From positions 1 through 61,208 of IMG/VR virus record IMGVR_UViG_3300009085_000030: a stretch of 61,208 nt of DNA; one strand, 5' to 3'. The DNA comes from a virus. This document shows positions 11,168-34,529 of this stretch, piece after piece. Each line of letters begins with the position of its first letter. Position 1 is the first letter of the stretch. A program made the position numbers and the translations under genes. The notes under the pieces are model-generated. The model ran no database searches. It was given only the letters and a program-made list of their open reading frames with translations, and was not told where the DNA came from.

Positions 11168-12592
11168 ATGGCCGCGCCTAAGAAAATTCAAGGGTTGACA
11201 AAGAGCTACCTGCCGGTGCTCGTTCAGTCCTTTTTCTCTTCGCTATGGGGTGGCGCTGGCGTCGCTCCGCGTGAGACTTACGCCGGCGAATGGCAGAACA
11301 GCAGCCGCGAGTCCGGGGGCGCTCAGCGAAAGAGCCCGCTCTCGCACAGCGCGGTCTACACCTGCATCAACAATATCGGGTCGGACATTTCGAAGCTGCC
11401 GCTTCGCGTGATGCGGCCCCGCGCTACCGGCGAGGGGCGCGAGCCCCACGTGAACCACCCGCTGACGCGGTTGTTCACGAAGCCGAACAACTACCAGACC
11501 AGCCTGCAATTCTTGCAGCACTACCTCGGCTCGAAACTCTGGACAGGCAACGCGTACACCATCTTGTTCCGCGATGCGCGAGGCGTGCCGGAGTCGATGC
11601 ACGCCCTGGACCCGACGACGGTGACGCCTGCTGTCACAGAAGAAGGCTCCGTGTGGTATCACGTGAAGGCCGACCGGCTGAACAGGCTGACTGAAGACCT
11701 GTACATCCCAGCCCGCGACATCATTCACGACCGGGCCATCACGCTTTTCCACCCACTCATCGGGGTCAGCCCGCTGTACGCCGCTGCGGTCAGCGCATCC
11801 ATCGGCAACAGCATCTCCGCGAACTCGGACCAGTTTTTCCAGAACATGAGTCGTGCCAGCGGCACGCTGACTGCTCCTGGGGAGATACCGCCGCCGACAG
11901 CCGACCGGCTCAAAAGAGAGTGGGACGGCAACTATTCTGGTCTCGGCTTCGGCAAGGTGGCGGTGCTTGGCAGCGGGCTCGAATGGAAGCCGCTGACGAT
12001 CAACGCAGCTGATGCGCAGCTGATCGAGCAACTGCGGTTCACTGTTGAGGACATCGGTCGGGTCTATCGGGTGCCATCATTCATGCTGGGCGAGACCAAG
12101 CTGACCTACCGCAACAGTGAGCAACTGGCGCGCATGTACTACCAAGGGTGTCTGTCCTACCACATCGAAGCGTTGGAGCAGTGCTTCAACCAGAAATTCG
12201 AAGTGAGCGGCGGCGTCGAGATCGAGTTCGACTTGTCGCCCCTGTTCCGCCTCGAGACGGATCTGCGGTACGACACCCACTCCAAGGCGCTCAACGCCGG
12301 TATCAAGTCGATCAACGAAGTTCGGGCGGATGAAGACCTGCCGCCGGTCAAGGGCGGCGAGGAGCCGCGCCTGCAGATGCAGTACGTACCGCTGAGCACG
12401 ATCAACGCTGCGGCTGCGGCTGCGATGGGGGCCAAGCCACCGGGCACCCCTGCGGCACCCGCCCCAGCACCCGAGCCGGAAGATGACGACGAGGAAGACG
12501 AGGATGAAACCGTGGAAGACGCTACCGAGGACTACATTGCGCGGGTGCACGCAAAGATCCTTTCGGCTGCGACCACACAAGCGGGGGCATGA
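11168..12592 (+). CDS. HK97-family portal protein
   Basis: 474 residues. Portal signatures include SHSAVYTCINNIGSDISKLPLRV near residue 60, HPLTRLFTKPNNYQTSLQFLQHYLGSKLWTGNAYT, HDRAITLFHPLIGVSPLYAA, and LIEQLRFTVEDIGRVYRVPSFML with YRNSEQLARMYYQGCLSYHIEALEQCFN (stem and wing). The last 50 residues are a Pro/Ala linker and acidic stretch. The portal is the dodecameric DNA gate at one capsid vertex. It follows protease and capsid genes here, the reverse of the more usual portal-protease-capsid order. Its stop overlaps the next start by ATGA. Confidence 0.93.
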   Translation: MAAPKKIQGLTKSYLPVLVQSFFSSLWGGAGVAPRETYAGEWQNSSRESGGAQRKSPLSHSAVYTCINNIGSDISKLPLRVMRPRATGEGREPHVNHPLTRLFTKPNNYQTSLQFLQHYLGSKLWTGNAYTILFRDARGVPESMHALDPTTVTPAVTEEGSVWYHVKADRLNRLTEDLYIPARDIIHDRAITLFHPLIGVSPLYAAAVSASIGNSISANSDQFFQNMSRASGTLTAPGEIPPPTADRLKREWDGNYSGLGFGKVAVLGSGLEWKPLTINAADAQLIEQLRFTVEDIGRVYRVPSFMLGETKLTYRNSEQLARMYYQGCLSYHIEALEQCFNQKFEVSGGVEIEFDLSPLFRLETDLRYDTHSKALNAGIKSINEVRADEDLPPVKGGEEPRLQMQYVPLSTINAAAAAAMGAKPPGTPAAPAPAPEPEDDDEEDEDETVEDATEDYIARVHAKILSAATTQAGA

Positions 12593-14394
12593 GCGTGGAT
12601 AAGAACGTAGTCATGATGGCGGAACAGGTTGGGCTGTTCCTGGCCCCAACGCTTCGGAGTATCGTCGGCACTTTGTTCACGGAAGCGGTCGGCGGGCTTC
12701 TCGGCAAGATGGCCGAACTGCAATCGACCACCGAGAAGTTGCGCGCTGACATGGAAGTGCGCAACGCCGCAGTGGATGCTGCCGCTGCTGAGCTGCGGGG
12801 TGTGTGCGCCGCGCAGGATGTGAAGATCGCGGACCTTGCGAAGTACGCGGATTCGATGCTGGCGACAAAGGCTGACCTTGGCGACTCGCAAGAAGCCTGG
12901 GGCCGCGCCGTGGCGAAGACCAACTCCGATGTGGAAGCCGCGCAGGAAGCGTGTCGTGAGACTCGCGCCGCTAGCGAACAGCAGGTCTCCGCCATCAAGG
13001 ACACGCTGCGCGACCTGACGAACGACCACGGCGCGCAACTGGTCGCCGTCCACCGCACGCTGGGGCCGTTGTCCGCCAGCGTCGAGACGTTGCGGCAGAC
13101 CCTGGATTCGGCTGTTGCCAAGCAGAGCGAAGACGTCGAGTTCCTCGTCACTGCGGACCACAAACTTCGCGAAGAACTCACGTCGTGCGTTGTGAAGATG
13201 CGCGAAGCGTATCAGCTCGCGATGGACACCATGGCGGAAACTAGCAAGCTGACGGATATCGGCCGCGGACTCGCCGCCCGTATCGACTCGGCTGCGGATC
13301 GGGTCGGCGCTACGGAAAAGGTGTGTGACGTTATCGCTGCTGATCTCAGCGGCACCTTAGCCCGATTGGCCGGGCTCGAGATGGCGATGGACGATACCCG
13401 CAAAGTGCTTGCTGAGGGAATCGAGGAGCGCGTCGCGCTGAAGCAGACCGCATATAGCGTGCAAGAATTCGCGCAGACCCTGCAATCGTCGCTGGTGGAG
13501 TTGCAAAATGCCGAGCCGCGAACGGTGACGATCAAGTCCGAGCCCGACCCTGCGCTCATTGACGCCGCGATTGCCGAGGCGGTCAAGGGTATCAAGGTGC
13601 CGGTGCCAGACATGCGGGCGCTAGCGGACGAAGCCCGCACTGTCGCTATCGAAGAAGTCAACACCCTCGTACCCAATGTGCGGGAGGCTCTCGCTGCCAA
13701 TGTGCGTGACGAAGTGTCGCGGGCGGTCGCTGCGCTGCCCGTACCCAAGGACGGCAAAGACGGCGAGCCCGGTCCCGCTGGGCAGATGGGCGCCGTCGAG
13801 CCCTTCATCGAGGGGTGCATCTACGAACGGCTGGCGCTGGTTTCGCACGCTGGGGGTGCGTGGCAGGCCACCCGGCGCACAAAAGCCGCGCCAGCGCCCC
13901 GCTCGCCCGACTGGCAGGCTATTGCGGCGGGGGTTTCGAGCGTGGCAGTGCACGCCACAAACAACCTGCGGTCCGTCGAAGTGATCGCAGCGCTGACGAA
14001 CGGCGACGAAGTGCGCTCCGCCATCGAAGTGCCGGCCATGGTCTACCGTGACGTCTACTCATCGGAGGCGGCGTACGACCCCGCGGATGTGGTGACCTAT
14101 GCTGGCTCGATGTGGATCGCGTTGAAAGAAACCACCGGTGAGCAACCGTCAAAGTCTCCTGAGGCGTGGCGGTTGGTGGTCAAGCGCGGGCAGGAAGGCA
14201 AGGACGGCAAGGACGGCGCCCATGGGGTGCAGTTCCAGGCTGGCTTCGAAGGCGAGTACGAAGAGAACAGGTCCTACTCGAAGAATACCATCGTCACATA
14301 CGCCAGTTCTATCTGGATGTCGAAGCGCGCCACCAAGGAGCGCCCGCCGTATATGTCCAACCAGGACAACGAACACTGGCTGCGCTTGAGGTAA
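12589..14394 (+). CDS. Coiled-coil/collagen-like protein with carbohydrate-binding modules
   Basis: 601 residues, translationally coupled to the portal gene. Residues 1-380 are long amphipathic helices and coiled coil (heptad-like Ala/Leu/Glu/Lys). Two collagen-like G-x-y stretches follow (GKDGEPGPAGQMG near 387; GQEGKDGKDGAHG near 532). About three short modules of the CBM5/12 type are seen: W-A-R near 425, YDPADVVTYAGSMWIALKET-P-S-AWRLV near 490-530, and YSKNTIVTYASSIWMSKRAT-P-W at the C-terminus. The architecture is that of a surface fibre, yet it lies inside the head-assembly cluster. It may be a head fibre that tethers virions to glycans; this is inference. Confidence 0.7.
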   Translation: MSVDKNVVMMAEQVGLFLAPTLRSIVGTLFTEAVGGLLGKMAELQSTTEKLRADMEVRNAAVDAAAAELRGVCAAQDVKIADLAKYADSMLATKADLGDSQEAWGRAVAKTNSDVEAAQEACRETRAASEQQVSAIKDTLRDLTNDHGAQLVAVHRTLGPLSASVETLRQTLDSAVAKQSEDVEFLVTADHKLREELTSCVVKMREAYQLAMDTMAETSKLTDIGRGLAARIDSAADRVGATEKVCDVIAADLSGTLARLAGLEMAMDDTRKVLAEGIEERVALKQTAYSVQEFAQTLQSSLVELQNAEPRTVTIKSEPDPALIDAAIAEAVKGIKVPVPDMRALADEARTVAIEEVNTLVPNVREALAANVRDEVSRAVAALPVPKDGKDGEPGPAGQMGAVEPFIEGCIYERLALVSHAGGAWQATRRTKAAPAPRSPDWQAIAAGVSSVAVHATNNLRSVEVIAALTNGDEVRSAIEVPAMVYRDVYSSEAAYDPADVVTYAGSMWIALKETTGEQPSKSPEAWRLVVKRGQEGKDGKDGAHGVQFQAGFEGEYEENRSYSKNTIVTYASSIWMSKRATKERPPYMSNQDNEHWLRLR

Positions 14395-22169: not shown

Positions 22170-22577
22170 GTGCGCCTGGAAGAGTATCTCGACCAGTGCC
22201 GGCCGCGCCGGTTCAACTGGCATAGTTGGAACTGCGTGCACTTTGCACTTGGCTGGGTGCAAGAGGTCGAGGATTCCCAAGTTCTGCTGGTGCACTACGT
22301 GCAGTCGACAGAAACAGCGCTGGCAGCGGCGCGGGTCGCGCAGAAGATGGGTGGGTTGCGCAATGCCCTGACCTCGGTACTGGGGCGCGACCCGATGCCG
22401 GCGCTGTCCGCGAGTATCGGTGACGTCGTGATGCTCGAAGAGTGGCGCTGCGGCAGTGCGGGCACGCTGGGTATCTGCAACGGGGTGTCTGCTGTTACGC
22501 TGCACCCTGCCCAAGGTTTTGCGAGCGCGGCCATGGGTGCCGCCTCTTGCATTTGGAAGATAAACCGCAATGGATAA
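22170..22577 (+). CDS. Tail-tip DUF6950/NlpC-P60-like protein
   Basis: 135 residues starting at GTG, two bases after the previous stop. The NWHSWNCVHFALGWV motif with its cysteine near residue 20, the GDVVMLE segment near residue 90 and a C-terminal W-I-N motif resemble small DUF6950/NlpC-P60-related tail proteins. These sit before the J-like gene, as lambda gpK does. A peptidoglycan peptidase role would require a catalytic His that I cannot place with certainty, so the protein may be structural. It overlaps the next gene by eight bases. Confidence 0.65.
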   Translation: MRLEEYLDQCRPRRFNWHSWNCVHFALGWVQEVEDSQVLLVHYVQSTETALAAARVAQKMGGLRNALTSVLGRDPMPALSASIGDVVMLEEWRCGSAGTLGICNGVSAVTLHPAQGFASAAMGAASCIWKINRNG

Positions 22578-25500
22578 CAAGCTGATCAAGACCGTCGTCG
22601 GCGCGCTGCTGGCGACGCCTCTCTATGCCTGGGCGGACCCAGCGACCTTGCTGATTCTAGCTGGGCAGTTCATCGCTACAGCCGGGCCGGTTGCCGGGGC
22701 ATACTTTGGGACGGGCATGGCTCTGGTCGCGGCCGGCGTCATCTACGGGTCGGTGTCCAAGCGCCGCGCTGCCAAGAAGGCGGCGACCGAAGCGAAGAAC
22801 GCCTACAACTCGCAACTGGAGGACCGGGGCGCGACCATCCTCAGCGCGGTGCCGCCGTGGCGCATCGTCTACGGGCGGGCTACCATCGGCGGGTCGATCC
22901 ACGCCATGTTCACAGCGGACAAGGTCAAGACCGTGAACGGGCAGCAGGTAACCCGCAAAGATGCGCTGCACTATCTGGTCTACGTGTTCGCGGCGCATGA
23001 GGTCGGGGCACTGCACAACGTGTTCATCGACAACACGCCCGCTGGCCCGTTCGACGCCGACGGGTATTCGTTGAATAGCGAGTTCCGATCCTCCGAGTCG
23101 ATGATGATGGCGGGCCAGGTATCTCTGGACATCGGGGCATCGTGGACGTCCGACAAGCCAGTGTTGAGTTTCACAGCTATCGGTCATCCGACGGACTATG
23201 TCCCCGAGTGGGGCCAGGCCCACGATGTGACCGGGTACATCACCGTGACGAACGGTGGACGGACGCTGACCAATAATTCAACGATGATCTCGACTGTTTC
23301 GTATCAGATGTATTCTGTTATGGATAGTTCGTTTCGGTTCATCTGGCACGATGGGGATCCGAACCAGACGGTGGACGGGCCGTTGCACAGCGCTTTCCCG
23401 GACAAGTGGACCACGAACCACCGTATCCGCGGGCGCGCGTATGCCGTCGTGGTGGTTGACCTGGAAGACAGCCGCTTCCAGAGTGGCCCGCCGAGCATCA
23501 CAGTTGACGTCACCGGTAAGCTGGTCTATGATCCACGCAACGCGTCGACCACTGCTTCCAACAACGTCGCGTTGTGCATCCGAGATTTCCTGCTGGCGAA
23601 GTACGGTGCCAACGCAGACACGACGGAGGTCAATGACACCTACGTTGCTGCGGCGGCGAACGCGTGTGACGCTTGGATCAGCGTCGATGTGCCCGGTTAC
23701 CTCGACACGATCACGTACACTTTCGCTGCCACCGTGGATGGGTGGGTCGGGAGCAACGCGACGCTAACTCAGAACAGCGGCACGCCGACCTTCCTCCGCG
23801 TGGCGTGCACTGCCGAGGATACGGTCGCGTACAAGGAAGGCCTCAGCTTCTCAGGCAGCACGAACCGGTACGTTCGCTTCCGCATGCGGCGCAATGCCGG
23901 CGACGGGTGGGTCGGCAAGCTCTACTACAAGACGGCAGGCCACGGCTACAGCGAGGACTACCGCAAGGACTTCAACACTGGCTTCCCTGTCGGCGGCGAT
24001 TGGGTGGAACTCGTATACGACATGCACTCGTTGACTACGGGTGCGGGGGATTGGAAAGGCTCGACCATCACCGGGTTGCAGTTCCGGTTTGGCATCGAGG
24101 CGGGCGACGTCTTTGACATCGACTGGATCTCGGTGTCGGAGTTTGCGCCAGATACCGAACTGCAACCCAAGTACACGATGAACGGTGCGTTCACGACGGA
24201 CGACAGCCGCGAAAGCGTACTCGAAAACATGGCCGTTGCCATGAACGGCTACGTCACGAACGGTGGGCAGTGGCTGGTGGTCGCGGGCGCGTGGACTGCA
24301 CCGGTGCGCGACTTCACAGACGACGACCTGGACGGCCAGATCGCTATCGTGCAGACGGACACTGGCCTTGACGAACTGGCGAACTCCTCCAAGGGTACGT
24401 ACTACCCAGTGGGCGTATCCTCGCCCGTCGAATTCCCGCCGTACAAGAACGCCACGCTGGTGACGAACGATGGCGAAGAACTCTGGGAAGATATCAACCT
24501 GCCGTACACGAACTCGGAAACGCGTGCGCGGAACGTCGCCCGGGTGCGGGTCGAACGTACGCGCAGCGGCCAGATCCTTACGGTGCCTTTGAAGCTGCAC
24601 GCGTGGCCGACGCAGGTAGGCGACCGCATCCGGTTGACCAGCACGGAGTACGGACTCAACCTGAAAGTCTACCGCGTCACGGACTGGGGGTTCAGCGTTA
24701 CTGGCGCTGTCGTGCTCACAGTGCAGGAAGATGCCGAGGAGATCTATGACGAAGCCGACACAACGCTTTCGGACCCGACCCCGAACACAGACCTTCCGAA
24801 CCCGAACATCGTACAGAATGTTGAGAACCTTCTCGCGGCCAGCGGCACCGACCACTTGACCGTCGCGTCAGACGGCACAATCACCACGCGTGTCTTCGTA
24901 TCGTGGGATGCCGCTCGAGACGCCTATCTGGTCGCGGGCAGTGCGTATGCCGAGATCAAGTGGCGGAGGGTGCTGTTCGACCCGGTGGACCAGTGGAATA
25001 TGTCCCGGGTGCCGGCGACCTCGGTCTCCGTGTACATCGAGAACGCTGTCGAGTTCGAGTTCCTGGTCATCGGTGTGCGCTACGTGAACAGCGTGGGGCG
25101 TGAAGGGGCCTGGTCCTTCGTCGAGCATACGGTCATCGGCAAGTCGGAGCCGCCGGATGCCGTCACCGGTCTGGCATATACAAACACCGCCGGTGGGATG
25201 CGGATCAGCTGGGACCCGTGCATCGAAGTCGACTACGCTGAGACGGAGCTCCGCTACGGTGCAAGTTGGGCGGCGGGCGTCCTGGTATGGGTGGGCAAGG
25301 CGAACGAAGCCTTGTGGATCCCGCCCGGCGAAGGCGACTACACCATCTGGGCGGTGCACCGCGACACGACCGGCCACGAGAGCACGCCGGCCAGTCTGGC
25401 TGTGAACTACGACGCCTCGGGCATCACAAGCGCCCAGACCATGGTGCTGTCGGCGGACCGGCTTGCGTTTGTCTTCGCGGACGAGAACGCGGCCACGGCG

Positions 25501-28500
25501 ATAACGACGGACGACATCACGCTTACTGCCAAGTTGCAGAACTTGGTTGGCGCGGTGAGCTTCAGCGCCGTCGCGTACAACTCCGCTGGGACCTCGCTGG
25601 GTGCGGTCACGCTAACCGGCACCAGTGATACCGTGCGCGTGCTGACGGCTGCGAACTTCGTCGCCCCGGGCTTGACCGTGGCGTACGTTGAGGTCACTGC
25701 TGAAATCGCCAGCACGAACGGCTCGGGCACACTGGACGATACAACGACCATCTACCGCGTGAACCACGGTAGCAACTCGGTCTACGTGATCCTGACCAAC
25801 GACTCGCACACGATCCCGACAAACTCCGACGGGACCAACGGGGTCTACACTGGGTCTGGTACAGACATCGGCGTGTTCGAGGGGACCAATCAGCTGGTCT
25901 GGGACAACGTCGGTACGACCCCGGGCAAGTGGAAGGTTGTCGCCAGTGGCGGCGGCACGATCACGCCGGGCGCGATCTCGGCGGCGGGCAACAATGCTCG
26001 CGTGGCGCAGCACGCCGGCATGACGAACTACACGGCAATCGTCACGTACACGATTACCGGTAAGACGTTGACCGGCGAGGCGTTCACTCATACGAAGCTG
26101 CAAACGCTGAGCAAGGCTATCGCGGGCAACAGCAGTGCGTTGCTCACCCTGGACTTCAGCGGTGTCGCGTTTGTATTCCAGGGTGAAGACGGCAACGTCT
26201 CCACGACGCCCAACATCACGCTCACGGCGCTGCTGAACAACATCACGGGCACAGCCACGTTCACCACGGCGGCTTACGATATTGGCGGAGGGTTGCTGGG
26301 CACCGGCACCCCACTGGGCGGGTCGGGCAATACCCGGACGCTGACGCCGGCGCAGTTCCTGACGTACCCGACGACGTACACGCTGAAGATCACGGCGACG
26401 CTCGACGCGTTGACTGACACGATCACAATCTATCGCGTCAACGACGGTGCGGACACGATGCAGGTTGGTTTGTCCAACGAGGCGCACCTGATCCCGTCCG
26501 CAAATGATGGTACCGTTGAGAGTTACTCGGGCGCCAGCGGCTCCATGGTTGCGGCCAAGGGTGGGTTGCTGCTATCGAATGTCACAGACCCTTCTGTTTC
26601 GTTCAGCATGGTTGGGTACACCGGCTTCAACACTGTGTACCCTGCTGCGCAGGCTGGCATTACGATCAACGCCACGACCGGTTTCTACTCGGTGACGGCG
26701 GGCATGACCGCCGATGTGGCAACGGTTACCTTCCGCGCTACCTTGTCGAACGGGTTCACGGCAGACCGCGTGTTCAGCCTCGCCAAGAGCAAGGAAGGCG
26801 CCGCTGGCTCGGCCGCAGTGTCCATCGACTTGCTGTCCGAGTCGGACATCACCGCTGCGAACTCTGACGGCACCGGGTATGTGCTGCCGGCGAACAACCA
26901 GATCAAGCTGTACGAGGGTGGCGTCCTGCTGGTGGCAGGGGTGACTTACGCTGGCGACATCACGAAAAACGGATTGACTGCGAACGTCAACGAGAGTACC
27001 GGTATAGTCACGTTTACGGGCTCGACCCCGACCTGGACGAGCAACGCCGAAAGCTTCACGTTCCAAGCAACATACAACTCGATCACATACTCCGCGAATT
27101 ACACGTACGCCAAGTCCAAGGCCGGCTCCGATGCAGTGAATGCCGACCTGCTTTCGGAAGCAGATGTGGTCGCGGCCGCAGCGGATGGCACTGGGTACGT
27201 GCTGCCCACCGGCAACGAATTCAAGCTGTACAAGGGTGGCACCGACCTGACCTCGGGGGTGGCGTACTCGGTGTGGAACACCGGCACGGCAACTTGGCTG
27301 GCGTCTACTACCAAGAACGGGCTGACGTTTGCCATCGACGCCAGCACCGGAGTCATCACGCTGTCGGGCGCTTCCTGGACGAGCGACTCGGAAGTCTTCA
27401 CTACCAAGGCGGTCTACGGCGGGCTCGATTACTCCAAGCTGTACTCCATCGCCAAGTCGAAGCGCGGCGAGACCGGTGAAGCCGGCGGCGTCGTGCTCAC
27501 TTTGCAGGCTACCGCTGCTGCATACGTTTTCGAAAGTCCGGACGCCACTTCCTCCACTACCCCGGCCATCACGCTCACCGGTTTGCGGGGCACGCTGGTC
27601 GGCACGATGACCTTCACGACGCAAGCCTTCAACGCGGCGGGCACTTCGCTGGGCACCGGCACGCCGCTGAGCGGTTCGGGCGACACGCGCACCATGACGG
27701 CGACGCAGTTTCTGTTCTACCCGACCGCACGTTACGTCACGATCACCGCAACGGTTGGCGCATACAGTGACACGTTCACGCTGTATCGCATCGACCACGG
27801 TTCGGACACCATCACGGCAGGTCTTTCCAACGAGTCACACATCGTACCTGCGGACCCTGCCGGCGTGGTGTCTAGCTGGGTCGGCGCGGGTGGCTCGATG
27901 GTCGTCCTCAAGGGTGTTGATATCCTGTCGAGCGTGACGACACCTTCAGTGGCGTTCTCACTGGTTGGGTACACCGGATTCAGCACCACCTACCCGACGG
28001 CGCAGGCGGGCATCTCTGTCAACACGACGACGGGGGCGTACTCTGTATCGAACAACGTGACGTCAGATGTGGCGACGGTTACCATCCGGGCTACCCTGTC
28101 GACCGGGCTGACCCTCGACCGCATCTTCACAGTCACGAAGGCGCGGCAAGGTATCGACGGTGACGGCGGCGTCGCTGCTCAGCTCTTGACCATCGGTGCA
28201 ACTGGACTGGCCTTCATCTTCGCGGACAAGAATGCGACGCTGGCGACCGAGCCTGAGAACATCGTGTTCACGGCTACGCTGCAGAACGTCTCGGGTACCG
28301 TGGTGTTCGCGGGCACCGCATACAACGCGGCCGGAACCATGGTCGGGTCCGCTGGTGGGGTTACCCTCACCGGCACGGGCAACACCCGCACGCTGTCCAA
28401 GGCGAACTTCAACGCCGCTGGGGCCACCGTCCAGTACGTGGTTGTCACGGCTACGCTCGGGTCGCTCAGCGACACGACTACGGTCTACCGTGGCGACCAT

Positions 28501-30795
28501 GGTAGTAGCGTGGTGCAGATCCTGATGTCCAACGAGGCGCACACTCTGCCTGCGGCGAACGACGGCACAGTCAGTAGCTACGTGGGCAGTGGCACGGCGA
28601 TTGGCATCTTCGAAGGCACCACACAACTGGACTACGACGGTATCGGAACTGCCGCCGGCAAGTGGACGGCCAGCCGTAGCGTCACGACCGGTACGATGAC
28701 GACGCCTGGGGCGCTGAGCGAATCGGGCGCGCTCGCCATCATGGCCGACCACGCAGGCATGACTGCAGATCTGGTGCAGGTTACGGTCACGGCTACAGGC
28801 AAGACCTTGACCGGAGCAAGCTTCTCGATCAGCAAGGTCCAATCGCTGACCAAGAGCAGGCAGGGCACAGCCGGCGTCACAGGTACGCGGACCGCTGTGC
28901 TCGAGATGTATAAGTGGGCGGCTTCGCAGCCCGTGAGCAGCTTCCCGGCAGGTACGTCCACGTACACCTGGGCCACCGGCCAGTTCACGGACCCGGCCAC
29001 GCCTAACAGTTGGACCCGCGTGCCGGGTGCCGCCGTTGCAGGGCAGACGCTGTGGGTGGTGCGGCAGGTCTACGCGGATCAGCTTACCTCGGCAACATCC
29101 GACGTCACGTGGGCGGCTACGTCCAGTGCGGCCTCCGGGGCGGCGGGCACTTCTGGCACGGACGGCCAGCGGGTCGGCTTCTTGGAAGTCTACAAGTGGG
29201 CACTCGCGCAGCCGGTGAGCAGCTTCCCGGCAGGTACGTCCACATACACGTGGGCGGACGGTTCCTTTACCGCACCGTCAACAGCGAACGGATGGGCGCT
29301 GGTTCCGGGTGCGCCGACTGCGGGGTACACTCTGTGGGCGTGTTCGGTCCGGGTGTCGAACAACAGCACAAGCGCTACTTCCAGCGCTACGTGGAACACT
29401 GCCGTCTCGTATGCGGTGGGCTTCGCAGGTTCGGATGGTGGCCCGGGCGACACCGGGCAGAGCAACCACCGGGTCTACCGCGCTGTCACAATCGGGGCCG
29501 CGAAGCTGACGCCTGCCAACACGACTAACGGGGCGACGCCGACTTCACCCGCGGTGTGGAGCGCGGTTCCGCTGACGCTCACGGCTGGGCAGGAACAATA
29601 CCAGTCTGATGGCACGACGCCAGCCGGCAGCACCACGACGACGTGGACTGTTGAATACCCGAGCTATTTGAAGGTCGGCACGCTGGAAGCTATCACGGGA
29701 AACATGGGTACGCTGACGGCGGGCTCGATCAACACGACGGGGTACCTGCGCGCGGAAGGGTCCACTGGCGTCACTGTTCCGGTCTCTGGGGCATCGGCGT
29801 CAAGAACTACTGCGGGCGCGTTCAATACTACCAACGCTCAACAGATCGGTGTGATAGCCACCAACAACAACTCTACTAACCCGGCGCTGTACGGGTGGAA
29901 CGCGTCTGTGGCATCCGGGATCGGGGTCTACGGGCAAGGCGCCATCGGGGTAGTTGGAATTGCCAATGCAGCTAATGGAGACTACGGCGCAATCTTCTAC
30001 GGCAATGGATCTCCGACATACGCGACGGTCGCTCTCTCAGCTTCGATCAACAATTCCAACGCAGGCAGTAAAGCTCTTGAAGTTTTCGGTGACACATCTG
30101 CCTCCCAGATCGCCATGGATGTCGCTGGCGCGGTAGTGTTCAAGGGGGCCAACGGTGGGAGTCTTCGACTCAAGCCTACAAACGGTGCACTGTACCGCGG
30201 AGTGATCCATTCGGTCAGTTCGACAACGTACTCGCTTGGTGTCACGGCGTCTGGGACTGCAGACGGTGCCGCAGCGACCACCCCGCTCAGCATCAATCTA
30301 TCAACGGGTGCGTTTACCTTCTCTGCTGCACCTTCGTTCCAGAGTAACTTTACGGTCGGCAGCACGACCCTCGTATCGAGCTTGAACGCTGACCTGCTCG
30401 ACGGGCAGCACGGGAGCTACTACGCTGCGGCGTCCAGCGTGCCTGCCGCCGCCAATAACGGTACGCTGACAATGGGCGTGTCTGGCGTTGGGCTGTCGGG
30501 GTCCGCATCGTTCACGGCTAACCAGAGCGGTAGCGGCACGTTCACAGTCACATCGAACGCAACCTCCGCCAATACCGCGAACGCTATCGTGTCTCGCAAT
30601 GCCAACGGGGATGTCTGGGTTCGGGACGCCAATATGGCGGGCACCATCAGCTTGAATGGTGCGACAGTTAGTTCCCTTGGCGGTGGTATTCCAACCTTCT
30701 CGACAAAGAAGCCGGGCGCGGATACCGTCAATACGTGGCTCCAGGTCTATGTCAACGGGGTCTTCTATCAAATTCCAATGTGGCCGAATAGCTAG
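22570..30795 (+). CDS. Giant J-like host-specificity / central tail fibre protein
   Basis: 2741 residues. Residues 1-60 are hydrophobic (LLATPLYAWADPATLLILAG, then GTGMALVAAGVIYGSV). Residues 75-370 match the start of J-like tip proteins (WRIVYGRATIGGSIHAM, LHNVFIDNTPAGPF). A jelly-roll carbohydrate-binding-like insert lies at about 375-525 (W-G-SNATLTQNSG, RYVRFRMRRNAGDGWVGKLYYKT, VFDIDWISVSEF). Two Fn3-like domains lie near 745-950. From about 955 to 2110, Ig-like domains alternate (ITLTAKLQNLVGAVSF, ITLTALLNNITGTATF). The C-terminus carries the fibre motif LNADLLDGQHGSYY near 2607. It probably forms the central fibre that contacts the receptor. Confidence 0.88.
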   Translation: MDNKLIKTVVGALLATPLYAWADPATLLILAGQFIATAGPVAGAYFGTGMALVAAGVIYGSVSKRRAAKKAATEAKNAYNSQLEDRGATILSAVPPWRIVYGRATIGGSIHAMFTADKVKTVNGQQVTRKDALHYLVYVFAAHEVGALHNVFIDNTPAGPFDADGYSLNSEFRSSESMMMAGQVSLDIGASWTSDKPVLSFTAIGHPTDYVPEWGQAHDVTGYITVTNGGRTLTNNSTMISTVSYQMYSVMDSSFRFIWHDGDPNQTVDGPLHSAFPDKWTTNHRIRGRAYAVVVVDLEDSRFQSGPPSITVDVTGKLVYDPRNASTTASNNVALCIRDFLLAKYGANADTTEVNDTYVAAAANACDAWISVDVPGYLDTITYTFAATVDGWVGSNATLTQNSGTPTFLRVACTAEDTVAYKEGLSFSGSTNRYVRFRMRRNAGDGWVGKLYYKTAGHGYSEDYRKDFNTGFPVGGDWVELVYDMHSLTTGAGDWKGSTITGLQFRFGIEAGDVFDIDWISVSEFAPDTELQPKYTMNGAFTTDDSRESVLENMAVAMNGYVTNGGQWLVVAGAWTAPVRDFTDDDLDGQIAIVQTDTGLDELANSSKGTYYPVGVSSPVEFPPYKNATLVTNDGEELWEDINLPYTNSETRARNVARVRVERTRSGQILTVPLKLHAWPTQVGDRIRLTSTEYGLNLKVYRVTDWGFSVTGAVVLTVQEDAEEIYDEADTTLSDPTPNTDLPNPNIVQNVENLLAASGTDHLTVASDGTITTRVFVSWDAARDAYLVAGSAYAEIKWRRVLFDPVDQWNMSRVPATSVSVYIENAVEFEFLVIGVRYVNSVGREGAWSFVEHTVIGKSEPPDAVTGLAYTNTAGGMRISWDPCIEVDYAETELRYGASWAAGVLVWVGKANEALWIPPGEGDYTIWAVHRDTTGHESTPASLAVNYDASGITSAQTMVLSADRLAFVFADENAATAITTDDITLTAKLQNLVGAVSFSAVAYNSAGTSLGAVTLTGTSDTVRVLTAANFVAPGLTVAYVEVTAEIASTNGSGTLDDTTTIYRVNHGSNSVYVILTNDSHTIPTNSDGTNGVYTGSGTDIGVFEGTNQLVWDNVGTTPGKWKVVASGGGTITPGAISAAGNNARVAQHAGMTNYTAIVTYTITGKTLTGEAFTHTKLQTLSKAIAGNSSALLTLDFSGVAFVFQGEDGNVSTTPNITLTALLNNITGTATFTTAAYDIGGGLLGTGTPLGGSGNTRTLTPAQFLTYPTTYTLKITATLDALTDTITIYRVNDGADTMQVGLSNEAHLIPSANDGTVESYSGASGSMVAAKGGLLLSNVTDPSVSFSMVGYTGFNTVYPAAQAGITINATTGFYSVTAGMTADVATVTFRATLSNGFTADRVFSLAKSKEGAAGSAAVSIDLLSESDITAANSDGTGYVLPANNQIKLYEGGVLLVAGVTYAGDITKNGLTANVNESTGIVTFTGSTPTWTSNAESFTFQATYNSITYSANYTYAKSKAGSDAVNADLLSEADVVAAAADGTGYVLPTGNEFKLYKGGTDLTSGVAYSVWNTGTATWLASTTKNGLTFAIDASTGVITLSGASWTSDSEVFTTKAVYGGLDYSKLYSIAKSKRGETGEAGGVVLTLQATAAAYVFESPDATSSTTPAITLTGLRGTLVGTMTFTTQAFNAAGTSLGTGTPLSGSGDTRTMTATQFLFYPTARYVTITATVGAYSDTFTLYRIDHGSDTITAGLSNESHIVPADPAGVVSSWVGAGGSMVVLKGVDILSSVTTPSVAFSLVGYTGFSTTYPTAQAGISVNTTTGAYSVSNNVTSDVATVTIRATLSTGLTLDRIFTVTKARQGIDGDGGVAAQLLTIGATGLAFIFADKNATLATEPENIVFTATLQNVSGTVVFAGTAYNAAGTMVGSAGGVTLTGTGNTRTLSKANFNAAGATVQYVVVTATLGSLSDTTTVYRGDHGSSVVQILMSNEAHTLPAANDGTVSSYVGSGTAIGIFEGTTQLDYDGIGTAAGKWTASRSVTTGTMTTPGALSESGALAIMADHAGMTADLVQVTVTATGKTLTGASFSISKVQSLTKSRQGTAGVTGTRTAVLEMYKWAASQPVSSFPAGTSTYTWATGQFTDPATPNSWTRVPGAAVAGQTLWVVRQVYADQLTSATSDVTWAATSSAASGAAGTSGTDGQRVGFLEVYKWALAQPVSSFPAGTSTYTWADGSFTAPSTANGWALVPGAPTAGYTLWACSVRVSNNSTSATSSATWNTAVSYAVGFAGSDGGPGDTGQSNHRVYRAVTIGAAKLTPANTTNGATPTSPAVWSAVPLTLTAGQEQYQSDGTTPAGSTTTTWTVEYPSYLKVGTLEAITGNMGTLTAGSINTTGYLRAEGSTGVTVPVSGASASRTTAGAFNTTNAQQIGVIATNNNSTNPALYGWNASVASGIGVYGQGAIGVVGIANAANGDYGAIFYGNGSPTYATVALSASINNSNAGSKALEVFGDTSASQIAMDVAGAVVFKGANGGSLRLKPTNGALYRGVIHSVSSTTYSLGVTASGTADGAAATTPLSINLSTGAFTFSAAPSFQSNFTVGSTTLVSSLNADLLDGQHGSYYAAASSVPAAANNGTLTMGVSGVGLSGSASFTANQSGSGTFTVTSNATSANTANAIVSRNANGDVWVRDANMAGTISLNGATVSSLGGGIPTFSTKKPGADTVNTWLQVYVNGVFYQIPMWPNS
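28933..29243 (+). repeat. Recent internal duplication in the tip-fibre gene
   Basis: A 29-base stretch at 28933-28961 is repeated exactly at 29215-29243, 282 bases apart. It lies in a larger duplicated unit encoding E-x-YKWA-x-QPVSSFPAGTSTYTW twice. The surrounding protein copies are similar but diverged, so the short block of full identity points to recent duplication or gene conversion. Confidence 0.85.
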
Positions 30796-31471: not shown

Positions 31472-31861
31472 ATGCTGAAGCGTCTATCTGCAAGCATCGC
31501 AGCGGTACTGATCTCTGCGTGTGGCGGCGGTGGAGATCCAGAGCCAGTAGTGGTCCTGGAACCCGCAACGGCGAAGATGCTGATGCTGCCGGTTCTTGGA
31601 ACGCAGAACTGCATCCCGGTCAGCGCGTACCAGCAGATGGTCAACGACGGGCGGTTCCGGCCGTACCCTACCGATCCGCCTGAAGGGTCTATCCGCCACC
31701 CGCCGTTCTTGCTTGTGCCCGCAGGCTCGACAGCCACGGTAGAAGTCGCGCCCGGTCTCGTCGGCACTCCTGTGGTGGTGCCAGGACCGAACGGCCCGAT
31801 GAACATCCTGGGGCTGTACTACGTTGAAGGCGAAACCCCCGATTGGGTATGCACGCCGTGA
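31472..31861 (+). CDS. Small secreted lipoprotein
   Basis: 129 residues from the ATG at 31472. MLKRLSASIAAVLISACGGGG is a short basic n-region, a hydrophobic core and a lipobox L-I-S-A-C with Cys17, so the mature form would be a lipid-anchored protein of about 113 residues. The remainder is Pro-rich with no recognised domain (LLVPAGSTATVEVAPGLVGTPVVVPGPNGP). Phage lipoproteins of this size can act in superinfection exclusion or as outer spanins, but no spanin partner pattern is evident, so the role is open. Two in-frame start choices upstream lack a signal peptide. Confidence 0.75.
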   Translation: MLKRLSASIAAVLISACGGGGDPEPVVVLEPATAKMLMLPVLGTQNCIPVSAYQQMVNDGRFRPYPTDPPEGSIRHPPFLLVPAGSTATVEVAPGLVGTPVVVPGPNGPMNILGLYYVEGETPDWVCTP

Positions 31862-32112
31862 ACGACGAACACGCACACTTGCACGAACTCATCCGGGATG
31901 CCACGCGTCGTGGGGTACGGGATGCCATTGACGAATTTCTACACGACGACTCAGAGTTCGGCCGGCTATCGGAGCGGCTGTACGGCAAGCTATCTGAGCA
32001 CACCACCAATGGGATCACTCAGTGGGTTGGTAAGCGGATACTCACTATCATGTTGGCGGCAGCCCTCTCGGGAAGTGTCGCATGGGCGGTACTGACCGGG
32101 AGAATAAAGTGA
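31849..32112 (+). CDS. Small C-terminal-anchored membrane protein
   Basis: 87 residues. Charged N-terminal helices (HAHLHELIRDATRRGVRDAIDEFLHDDSEFGRLSERLYGKL) are followed by one transmembrane segment (ILTIMLAAALSGSVAWAVLTG). It overlaps the lipoprotein gene by 13 bases; a GTG at 31858 giving a GTGA overlap is an alternative start. The size and layout allow a holin accessory or antiholin role in the lysis region, but no family is recognised. Confidence 0.65.
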   Translation: MHAVNDEHAHLHELIRDATRRGVRDAIDEFLHDDSEFGRLSERLYGKLSEHTTNGITQWVGKRILTIMLAAALSGSVAWAVLTGRIK

Positions 32113-32570
32113 TAATCAAAGAGCTCCTCCATATGTGGCCGTCCGTAATCATCGGTCTTCTACTGGGCCTGATCACAGTGCCCCTCAGCGACGTAGGTCT
32201 CGATGCTGTGCGCGAAAAGTACGACAGCCGCAACCCGGTCGTTGTCACGAACGGCACTTTGCTGCATCGTGAAGAAGATTCTGTGGAAGTCGCCATCGTC
32301 GGCGAGAAGAAGCGCGCCTGTATCTACGTTGCCCTGGCGGCATACGCTACTGGGGCGGACGGCTTGATGCGTGACACGTACACCTTGCGCGTCGACATGC
32401 CTTCTGGTGGTGCGACTCGCCCGGTGGGGCCGCAGAGCTTCGGAGTGTGGCGCCTCTGGCCGATACCGAAAGGGGTGACTCGTATTCAGATGTGGAGTAC
32501 GCACCAATGCGAAGGCCGGCTGGTGCGCTCGCTGATGGCCGAAATCGAACTGGGAAAGACGGTGCAATGA
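32109..32570 (+). CDS. Membrane-anchored protein of unknown function
   Basis: 153 residues from a GTG with GGGAGA five bases upstream, overlapping the previous stop by GTGA. One N-terminal transmembrane helix (SVIIGLLLGLITVPL) precedes a soluble domain of about 125 residues with beta-strand character (VVVTNGTLLHREEDSVEVAIVGEKKRACIYVALAAYA, TYTLRVDMPSGG). The type is a periplasmic-facing single-pass protein. No family recognised. It belongs to the chain of overlapping small membrane-protein genes before the endolysin. Confidence 0.7.
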   Translation: MIIKELLHMWPSVIIGLLLGLITVPLSDVGLDAVREKYDSRNPVVVTNGTLLHREEDSVEVAIVGEKKRACIYVALAAYATGADGLMRDTYTLRVDMPSGGATRPVGPQSFGVWRLWPIPKGVTRIQMWSTHQCEGRLVRSLMAEIELGKTVQ

Positions 32571-32888: not shown

Positions 32889-33215
32889 ATGAAGACAAAG
32901 ACGCTTACCCTTTCCATTGCCAACGCCCTCGACGGGGTTGCCATCAGCGACGAGATGCCCGCCGGCACGCTCATGGCGTTCTACGACAGGGCGCGCAAGC
33001 TGGTCCCGCCCGAAGAGTGGGGCTCAGCCAAGGTCCACGGGGCCAGCCATCTCAGCCTCACGTACGAGCACTCGCTGTCTAGCGAAGAGGAGACCCGTTC
33101 GCTGCTGCAAGACGCCAACACCCGCGCCAGTCAGGTCCGGTTGCTGCTGCCGCCGCACCCCGGCGAAGGCCTCAGCGCAGAACAGGTCGACCAAATCCGG
33201 CAACTGCTGGGGTAG
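32889..33215 (+). CDS. Small unknown protein upstream of endolysin
   Basis: 108 residues with AAGGAAG six bases upstream of the ATG. Sequence LSIANALDGVAISDEMPAGTLMAFYDRARKLVPPEEWGSAKVHGASHLSLTYEHSL suggests a folded mixed domain; a helical tail (EQVDQIRQLLG) follows. No signal peptide or membrane helix. No family recognised; it lies six bases before the endolysin gene. Confidence 0.65.
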   Translation: MKTKTLTLSIANALDGVAISDEMPAGTLMAFYDRARKLVPPEEWGSAKVHGASHLSLTYEHSLSSEEETRSLLQDANTRASQVRLLLPPHPGEGLSAEQVDQIRQLLG

Positions 33216-33221
33216 GCTCCT

Positions 33222-34412
33222 ATGCGAGTGACACCCGCACTGCTGGTCGCCGCCGTCGGGTGCACCGCTGCCAAGGCGGCGGAGTTCGCGCCGCATCTTG
33301 CCGGGGCGTGCACTGCATACCAGATCGACACCCCCCGCAGACTGGCCGCGTTCCTTGCCCAGATTGGTCACGAGTCTGGGTCGCTCAAATACACGACGGA
33401 GATCTGGGGGCCAACCGCAGCGCAGCAGACGTACGAAGGCCGCATCAGCCTGGGCAATACCGAGCCGGGTGACGGCGAGCGGTACAAGGGTCACGGATTG
33501 ATCCAGACTACGGGTCGGTTCAACCACCGTGCCGTGCGTGACCGCTTGCGGAAACGCGGCATCGACTGCCCCGATTTCGAAGCGGAGCCAGACCGGCTGG
33601 CGGAGCCTGCGTGGGCAGCGTGGTCCGCTGCCGACTACTGGGACTGGCGGCACTGCAACCCGTTGGCGGATGCCGGGTCGTTCGAAGCCATCACGATCAA
33701 GATCAATGGCGGGACCAACGGGCAGTCCGACCGTCTCGAGCGCTGGGCCAAGGCAAAGGCGGTCCTCGAGAACTGGGTCGAAGACGCAGCCGCGCCCATC
33801 ATCGAATCACTTGCCCCGACACCTGCACCGGTACCGGACCCGACCCAATACTCACAGGAGGCTGGAATGCCACTCCCCGCGATCCCCGCAATCGTCAGCG
33901 CCCTGCTGCCTACTGTCGTCCAGATGATACCTCGGCTGGCGACCATCTTCAAGCCGGGCAGCGAAGTCGCAGAACGCAACGTCGCCGCCGCTTCGGCTGT
34001 GATCGATATCGTCACGCAGGCTACCGGCGCGGTCAACGCGCAGGCTGCGGTCGAAGCGATCAAGACAGACCCGACCGCACTGGCCGCTGCAACCAAGGCG
34101 GTGGAGTCAAACTGGTTCGAGCTTCACAAGGCCACCGAAGAAAGCGTCGCTGCTGCGCGCCTGTTCAACAAGTCGTACGTCGAGAACATGAACGTGCGCA
34201 CAGTGGCATGGAACTTTACGTTCCTCGAAGTGCTGTCGTTGATCCTTGTGCTGTCAACCCTGTCGGGCGGCATGTCCGTACTGCTGTGGGGCGGCATCGA
34301 CGATCAGCTGAAAGGTGCCGTTGTGACCCTCATGCTGATCGGCGGGTTCACCGGGGTTACGAACTTCTGGTTCGGGTCGAGCCTCGGCAGCAAGAAGAAA
34401 GACGACAAGTAG
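33222..34412 (+). CDS. Endolysin (GH19 chitinase-like) fused to holin-like membrane domain
   Basis: 396 residues. Residues 1-185 are a GH19-like lysozyme/chitinase domain: LAAFLAQIGHESGSLKYTTEIWGP with the probable catalytic Glu, QTYEGRISLGNTEPGDGERYKGHGLIQTTGRFNH, and ITIKINGGTNGQSDRLERW. A Pro/Thr linker (LAPTPAPVPDPTQYSQEAG) joins it to residues 216-396. Those resemble the 3TM/gene-transfer-agent holin family: an amphipathic start, then two clear membrane segments (FTFLEVLSLILVLSTLSGG; GAVVTLMLIGGFTGVTNFWFG) and a Lys-rich C-terminus. Such a fusion is unusual. A strong internal ribosome site suggests that the second part is also made alone. Confidence 0.85.
   Translation: MRVTPALLVAAVGCTAAKAAEFAPHLAGACTAYQIDTPRRLAAFLAQIGHESGSLKYTTEIWGPTAAQQTYEGRISLGNTEPGDGERYKGHGLIQTTGRFNHRAVRDRLRKRGIDCPDFEAEPDRLAEPAWAAWSAADYWDWRHCNPLADAGSFEAITIKINGGTNGQSDRLERWAKAKAVLENWVEDAAAPIIESLAPTPAPVPDPTQYSQEAGMPLPAIPAIVSALLPTVVQMIPRLATIFKPGSEVAERNVAAASAVIDIVTQATGAVNAQAAVEAIKTDPTALAAATKAVESNWFELHKATEESVAAARLFNKSYVENMNVRTVAWNFTFLEVLSLILVLSTLSGGMSVLLWGGIDDQLKGAVVTLMLIGGFTGVTNFWFGSSLGSKKKDDK
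33867..34412 (+). CDS. Putative in-frame internal start: free holin
   Basis: AGGAGG at 33856-33861 stands five bases before an in-frame ATG at 33867, an ideal Shine-Dalgarno spacing. The product of 181 residues (MPLPAIPAIVSALLPTV...) has the size and ending (F-W-F-G-S-S-L-G-S-K-K-K) of stand-alone holins with two or three membrane segments. The same stretch is read through as the C-terminus of the endolysin. Initiation here is inferred from the site only. Confidence 0.65.
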   Translation: MPLPAIPAIVSALLPTVVQMIPRLATIFKPGSEVAERNVAAASAVIDIVTQATGAVNAQAAVEAIKTDPTALAAATKAVESNWFELHKATEESVAAARLFNKSYVENMNVRTVAWNFTFLEVLSLILVLSTLSGGMSVLLWGGIDDQLKGAVVTLMLIGGFTGVTNFWFGSSLGSKKKDDK

Positions 34413-34421
34413 GCCAGCCCC

Positions 34422-34529
34422 ATGGACCCCAAGAAAATCATCGTCGCCGTGGCCGGCGCGGGCATGGTGGCTCTCATAGTCACCGTCGCCGTAATGGCGT
34501 ACTCCGCCTGGGTGCTGTTCGCTTCGTAG
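34422..34529 (+). CDS. 35-residue single-pass membrane protein
   Basis: Starts nine bases after the endolysin-holin stop. MDPKK is followed by an uninterrupted hydrophobic segment (IIVAVAGAGMVALIVTVAVM) and AYSAWVLFAS. The topology looks N-in by the Lys residues. It is the last gene before the convergent terminator. It could be a second small holin or holin regulator; this is inference from place and shape. Confidence 0.55.
   Translation: MDPKKIIVAVAGAGMVALIVTVAVMAYSAWVLFAS

Follow-up and report, generated by a model that had tools for sequence, protein, structure and literature searches.

In the textbook picture of phage lysis, a soluble endolysin waits for the holes made by a holin. Endolysins consisting of two polypeptides produced from single genes have been shown for phages of Gram-positive hosts; the survey was restricted to such phages, and starts of this kind were called unlikely for Gram-negative ones (PMC9430671). 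A holin-endolysin fusion of Clostridium sporogenes has been used in an argument about export without large holes (PMC9527704). TeaA, the holin of phage ICP1, is sufficient by itself to lyse Vibrio cholerae: its expression reduces the proton motive force, and dinitrophenol acts as a trigger; its authors assigned it to PF11351 through remote homology (PMC7182436). The nested starts of the lambda S gene, S107/S105, give long and short holin forms, of which the long one is inhibitory.

The locus described here lies in a 61,208-nt stretch of viral DNA, referred to below as the window (IMG/VR record IMGVR_UViG_3300009085_000030, positions 1 to 61,208). Comparative evidence makes it likely that a single gene of the window yields both a membrane-tethered lysin-holin and a free holin; the two products, their topology, the antiholin role, and the release of the lysin are inferred, with no protein data. 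The initial sequence-only reading had proposed that a GH19-type lysin is fused in frame to a holin-like membrane part with two helices, and this held: the lysin part is related to phrog_181 and PDB 9ms7, the membrane part to phrog_1544 and TeaA, and two strong hydrophobic helices are present. The open reading frame and its first two parts are as follows.

33222..34412, plus strand: whole ORF, endolysin-linker-holin fusion, 396 aa in one uninterrupted frame, computed mass 42.4 kDa
33222..33767, plus strand: GH19-type endolysin domain, residues 1-182 (phrog_181, PDB 9ms7, pLDDT mostly >90)
33768..33866, plus strand: Pro/Ala-rich linker, residues 183-215, mostly predicted disordered

The lysin part is a GH19-type phage endolysin of the phrog_181 type, as shown by the sequence match across the catalytic domain. 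In the PHROG search phrog_181 covers residues 1-223 of the ORF with an E-value of 5e-58, and the best solved relative is the PWe2 endolysin (PDB 9ms7, E 2.3e-38), in whose alignment the HES and EIWG motifs coincide. A match to Pfam PF00182, the other criterion for GH19, was not obtained, no Pfam family being found for the whole ORF at E <= 1; even the relative L033 matches PF00182 only at E 0.0044, under the cut-off. In the structure model of the fusion pLDDT falls below 50 at residues 188-222. No signal peptide is visible by eye on the lysin, and no second lysin was found in the record among further matches to phrog_181, phrog_7, or phrog_90, the three classes searched, in a record that may be incomplete.

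The second part of the fusion is very probably a complete holin of the TeaA/phrog_1544 type, as inferred from sequence alone through near full-length homology, without proton-motive-force or lysis data for the window protein. Its features are listed below.

33867..34412, plus strand: TeaA/phrog_1544-type holin, 181 aa, computed mass 19.1 kDa, fusion residues 216-396
33879..33947, plus strand: N-terminal Pro-containing hydrophobic helix of the holin (helix 5-27 in the AF2 model; hydropathy peak at residues 3-21)
34230..34286, plus strand: likely transmembrane helix, holin residues 122-140 (AF2 model and hydropathy)
34317..34373, plus strand: likely transmembrane helix, holin residues 151-169 (AF2 model and hydropathy)

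The AF2 model of this part (mean pLDDT 79, pTM 0.49) has a helical middle between the N-terminal helix and the C-terminal helix pair. phrog_1544, which itself carries no assigned function, matches residues 216-396 with E 2.1e-7 and 26 of 36 family members at E <= 0.01, and TeaA (record MW794178) with E 1.7e-53. When a profile of the 36 holin members was aligned with TeaA, hhalign returned a probability of 98% over TeaA residues 1-168 of 182. Met1 of TeaA falls in the column of window holin residue 6, five residues downstream of the Met encoded at 33867 and not in the column of residue 1; the same column also holds Met1 of the members beginning with MAP. No match to PF11351 (GTA_holin_3TM) at E <= 0.1 was obtained with TeaA or with any of the 36 family holins, and the window holin is therefore not filed in that family. 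Foldseek, run on BFVD with the holin model as query, returned no hit at E <= 0.001, the third-ranked entry (E 0.14) being named 'Holin of 3TMs'. Among known phages the window holin part matches only 81 records, all of Vibrio phages and all weakly (best E 4e-3), and the holin domains of L017, L028, L053, and L022 have no known-phage matches at E <= 1e-3. No plasmid was found with the L017 holin domain as a query, and a scan of viral contigs with the window holin part alone confirmed nothing.

The fusion is not peculiar to the window. Loci were collected by scans of viral and genome contigs and from 399 genomes of the family of Azohydromonas, ten of which had a match. Excluded before counting were L025, which looks chimeric, and L029 and L030 (the same as L067 and L068), whose contigs end inside the holin domain; nine distant loci, L074-L082, were read but left out of the family counts. 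The contig of L025 is labelled Saprospiraceae, and in it a repeat-rich frame is abruptly joined to a family holin domain, by its look an assembly chimera. Including the window, 46 of the 47 usable loci are in-frame fusions of a lysin followed by a holin, and the single exception, L028, is a split lysin/holin pair. The class of the lysin was computed for 37 of the 46 fused loci and read by eye for the other nine. An additional set of 399 genomes, drawn from the order, yielded five matches at E <= 1e-10, namely three fusions already counted and the distant stand-alone holins L081 and L082. Azohydromonas lata, which carries prophage L026, and Methylibium sp., two members of the Burkholderiales, are among the named hosts; the others are assemblies assigned to the Burkholderiales or Pseudomonadota. 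In known isolated phages (50,697 phage genomes, tblastn, E <= 1e-5) none of the 1061 matching records covers 80% of the fusion at one place. With 46 of 47 loci fused, a sequencing error or a missed stop codon as the origin of the fusion was rejected. Split relatives do exist, which the initial reading feared would point to such an error; what they show is a holin gene with its own predicted start at or near the junction.

At that junction the signals of an internal start are found.

33856..33861, plus strand: internal Shine-Dalgarno (SD) sequence AGGAGG, 5 nt before the ATG, supported by comparative SD and synonymous-site evidence
33867..33869, plus strand: internal holin start codon ATG (Met216); 34 ATG and 2 GTG in 36 fusions, and the predicted gene start in split L028

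The claim that AGGAGG precedes an in-frame ATG at the junction with ideal spacing was upheld at these positions. Conservation was assessed in 36 non-redundant fusions, the holin parts of which are less than 90% identical; near-identical rows, including L015/L016, L039/L040, L054/L055, L058/L059, and L060/L061, were collapsed, and L026 and L046 are the same prophage. Two clusters are represented by L039 and L058 in the anti-SD set but by L040 and L059 in the start-codon, tree, and synonymous sets. The GTG codons that replace ATG at the junction are those of L027 and L073. Upstream, positions -11 to -7 read A, G, G, A, and G in 33, 33, 32, 31, and 27 of the fusions, respectively, and the SD-start motif is kept despite differing peptides and register, with P-G-G-R-T-M in L051, Q-E-N-P-A-M in L057, and Q-E-V-H-T-M in L053 next to the usual [KQ]-E-x-x-M. 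A duplex energy with the anti-SD of -6 or lower precedes the junction codon in 30 of 37 loci (36 fused and one split), that is, in 30 of the 36 fused ones, versus 64 of 728 other in-frame ATG, GTG, or TTG codons of the same open frames; the SD before the junction codon is therefore beyond chance. In three of the 36 fusions, L015, L045, and L056, the SD is weak or absent, with a duplex energy weaker than -5. Taken together, this comparative evidence, without protein or RNA data, makes it very likely that an in-frame internal start with an SD is present in the endolysin gene and conserved over the family.

Two other roles for this region can be considered. The SD-like motif might be a translational pause site aiding the insertion of the holin hairpin rather than an initiation signal; it does lie inside the coding region and upstream of the membrane helices. 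A pause has no need of a start codon at fixed spacing, yet all 36 fusions have ATG or GTG there, and the strong hairpin is located more than 300 nt downstream of the motif, which leaves this explanation with very little support. Very improbable too is a separate promoter within the lysin gene producing a holin mRNA, although the internal SD and ATG would be used in that case too: between 33000 and 34700 the sole sigma-70-like site belongs to the opposite strand, one being found versus 0.3 expected, in a scan limited to promoters of the sigma-70-like type. A programmed frameshift was also looked for; within 60 nt, four X XXY YYZ heptamers in the -1 register occur in the 36 loci, none near the SD, and two of the four share one position (+53, in L017 and L041).

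Further support for internal initiation comes from synonymous sites. Tests of SD strength against synonymous codon choices were not significant for single loci, since codons for the frequent K/Q-E peptide tend to create an SD anyway. With the 36 loci pooled, the observed mean energy was reached in none of 300 synonymous draws; the pooled test was weaker at the 21 loci of less than 70% identity, where 23 of 300 draws reached it. Third-position G is depleted in the eight codons flanking the start, with 31 of 288 versus 93.5 expected from the amino acids (z -8.8, 36 loci) and, in the 21 loci of less than 70% identity, 20 of 168 versus 55.3 (z -6.5); in 22 control windows placed along these ORFs z ranged from -2.8 to 2.5. 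RNA structure around the start (48 nt, -24 to +24) is likewise low, the MFE being -8.2 kcal/mol versus -12.1 kcal/mol for synonymous versions; it is thus 3.9 kcal/mol weaker than the synonymous null, and weaker in 31 of 36 loci (17 of 21), whereas the same difference at 22 control shifts ranged from -1.1 to 0.6 kcal/mol. Translation initiation regions are usually marked by just such a scarcity of G and of structure around the start. The tests of G depletion and structure were post hoc, devised after the first SD test had proved weak, and the z-values are inflated by the relatedness of the rows, which the control windows share. With these reservations, the synonymous sites and RNA structure around the junction probably carry the signature of selection on an initiation region.

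The arrangement of genes in split relatives indicates where such a start could have come from. In L028 the GH19 ORF ends 16 nt into the holin ORF, out of frame, and the predicted holin ATG is at the junction position. Among the distant stand-alone relatives, the holin ATG of L078 and L079 overlaps the upstream lysin stop by 1 nt, with the holin SD within the lysin gene; the lysin and holin genes of L074 are 1 nt apart; and in L081 AAAGGAG precedes the holin ATG. These five loci answer the search for split versions suggested at the outset, L028 within the family and the other four outside it. A lysin-like frame is found upstream of the holin in L074, L076 (partial only), L078, L079, L080, and L081, in several cases GH108-like by eye; none was seen directly before the holin in L075, L077, and L082. 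In the holin tree, rooted on TeaA, L074, L075, and L078, these four separate from the 38 rows of the family (99/94); L028 is placed inside the family at an unresolved position, and TeaA is on a long branch. One possible route, inferred from gene arrangement, is that loss of the stop or a frame shift in a split lysin/holin pair produced the present layout and left the holin start unchanged.

The lysin attached to the holin varies. Classes were assigned by an all-against-all comparison without linkers of the 38 tree rows (37 fused and L028); after a first clustering had merged GH19 with phrog_90, the final one left out the last 45 residues and applied a stricter threshold. The rows comprise 16 GH19 lysins (one being the split L028), six of GH24, and 16 phrog_90-like, the groups being anchored by the phrog_181 matches of the window and L033, by the match of L034 to PF00959 (E 6.7e-48), and by the phrog_90 matches of L017 and L040, respectively. 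On the holin tree, which also includes L072 beside L073, lysin type requires at least 17 changes versus 16.5 +- 1.6 for shuffled labels; with no phylogenetic signal, the lysin and holin modules are therefore freely exchanged. Eight pairs of loci that have similar holins but lysins of different classes were compared: identity was 0.45-0.70 in the upstream stretches, 0.57-0.91 over the 20 nt preceding the start, and 0.71-0.89 beyond it, so that the rise is located at or just downstream of the SD and start. In part of the family a nearly identical boundary patch of 26 nt is present.

33846..33871, plus strand: 26-nt patch CAATACTCACAGGAGGCTGGAATGCC, with almost no differences between contigs that carry lysins of different classes

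It is conceivable, as an inference only, that this patch itself aids recombination.

The junction data bear on two further explanations. In the first, the fusion is the only product, and the SD and ATG are a relic of formerly separate overlapping genes. Given the split overlapping lysin-holin pairs among relatives, a relic of this kind would be expected to persist at first, and the lack of a good SD in three of the 36 fusions agrees with it. The linker upstream falls near background identity even where the holins are similar, yet the SD, its spacing, the start codon, the depletion of G, and the low structure are kept, which makes the relic unlikely. In the second, the fusion is a polyprotein: a protease cut in the linker would release the lysin and the holin separately, and no internal start would be needed. 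The long disordered Pro/Ala-rich linker would suit a protease, and free GH19 lysins of the same type without a holin part exist (L002-L004). Against this, the linker peptide is not conserved across the family, and the SD, the start codon, the GTG replacements, and the synonymous-site selection remain unexplained; the polyprotein is thus very unlikely as a sufficient account, even if cleavage could act additionally.

The dual-product reading remains preferred, and the idea that one ORF may give a membrane-tethered lysin and a free holin is supported by comparison, the production of two proteins and the tethered action being inferred. According to the proposed model, ribosomes starting at 33222 would make the 42.4-kDa lysin-linker-holin, anchored in the inner membrane by the C-terminal hairpin of the holin, and those starting at the embedded SD and ATG (33856-33869) would make the free 19.1-kDa holin. 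The lysin of the long form would stay on the cytoplasmic side until the holin triggers; it is placed there because no signal peptide was seen by eye. Sharing the holin domain, both products would co-assemble in a raft, and triggering would expose the raft lysins at the edge of the hole, where they would cut peptidoglycan on the flexible tether or after cleavage of the linker. Since TeaA alone lyses V. cholerae, a TeaA-type lesion may, by analogy, be large enough for the tethered enzyme to reach the wall; proteolytic release of the lysin is not excluded. The long form might in addition act as an antiholin that holds back the short one, a guess by analogy with lambda S and its two starts. A bolder reading, no more than a possibility, is that at no time does the endolysin exist as a free soluble enzyme. 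The holin gene and the start embedded in it would then be a socket for any wall-cutting enzyme, with three classes in use, and the long form would serve both as the tethered, wall-cutting subunit and as a timer, similar to an antiholin, that acts on the free short form.

The surroundings of the fusion contain several other genes. Three short flanking ORFs, 31843-32112 (89 aa), 32082-32570 (162 aa), and 34422-34529 (35 aa), have a hydrophobic, transmembrane-like stretch by eye; they could be additional lysis proteins, a tentative suggestion, and none has a PHROG match at E <= 0.001. The 162- and 89-aa products show no homology by BLASTP to ICP1 ArrA and gp139, nor do they match anything in the loci at E <= 1e-3. 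Five loci, L034, L018, L040, L037, and L031, share a conserved gene pair for membrane-protein-like products (86 and 155 aa in L034), which lies ahead of the fusion, some 0.9-1.7 kb before the holin start. Directly before the window fusion is an ORF of 108 aa (32889-33215) that matches no PHROG at E <= 0.1; its relatives in L032, L018, and L041 are also close to the fusion, two on its downstream side and one on its upstream side. Elsewhere in the window, ORFs 11168-12592 and 12589-14394 overlap by 4 nt and both match portal families (phrog_12, and phrog_1289 with the C-terminal part of phrog_2271, respectively), possibly a split portal or a portal plus a portal-like second gene. The 2741-aa product of ORF 22570-30795, with internal repeats by eye, is probably a host-contact tail protein, a guess made without a homology search.

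Two-polypeptide endolysin genes and a holin-endolysin fusion of the reverse order have thus already been published, and a lysin-holin fusion with an embedded holin start appears to be unreported: no report was found in the open-access literature searched, subscription papers and preprints being outside its scope and database annotation of these proteins left aside. What the family adds is a conserved set of phages and prophages in which the lysin adjoining the holin is built into it, with a free holin probably made from the same message. Whether an endolysin needs to be released in the first place, and how lysis timing depends on the proportion of tethered lysin to free holin, can be put to the test here. 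If the reading is true, internal starts in lysin genes extend beyond the Gram-positive phages of the earlier survey (PMC9430671).

The endolysins of that survey have in common with the present gene an in-frame internal start within the endolysin gene, from which long and short products sharing a stop codon are made. In the examples described there the short product is a C-terminal part of a Gram-positive endolysin, wall-binding with or without a catalytic domain, whereas here it is a holin; the short product of the window matches phrog_1544 alone, the family of TeaA, and shows neither a wall-binding nor a catalytic domain. The fusion of C. sporogenes also unites holin and endolysin in one translational unit, but with the endolysin on the C-terminus of the holin, in contrast to the lysin-then-holin order of all 46 fused loci; its holin is of the TpeE family, it is known from six genomes of one species, and no internal start is mentioned in the relevant sections (PMC9527704). 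TeaA of ICP1, homologous to the window holin over most of its length, is encoded by a separate gene behind the antiholin gene arrA and has no fused lysin. LysAP of Acidovorax phage AP1, the host of which is in the same bacterial order as the hosts of the fusion phages, is a GH24 endolysin that cannot bring about lysis without its C-terminal membrane part, but this part is one transmembrane helix (residues 194-216) and not a complete holin, and a separate holin, HolAP, is present (PMC8879335). Finally, in lambda S the longer form differs by an extension of two residues, whereas in the family described here the extension is an entire endolysin.
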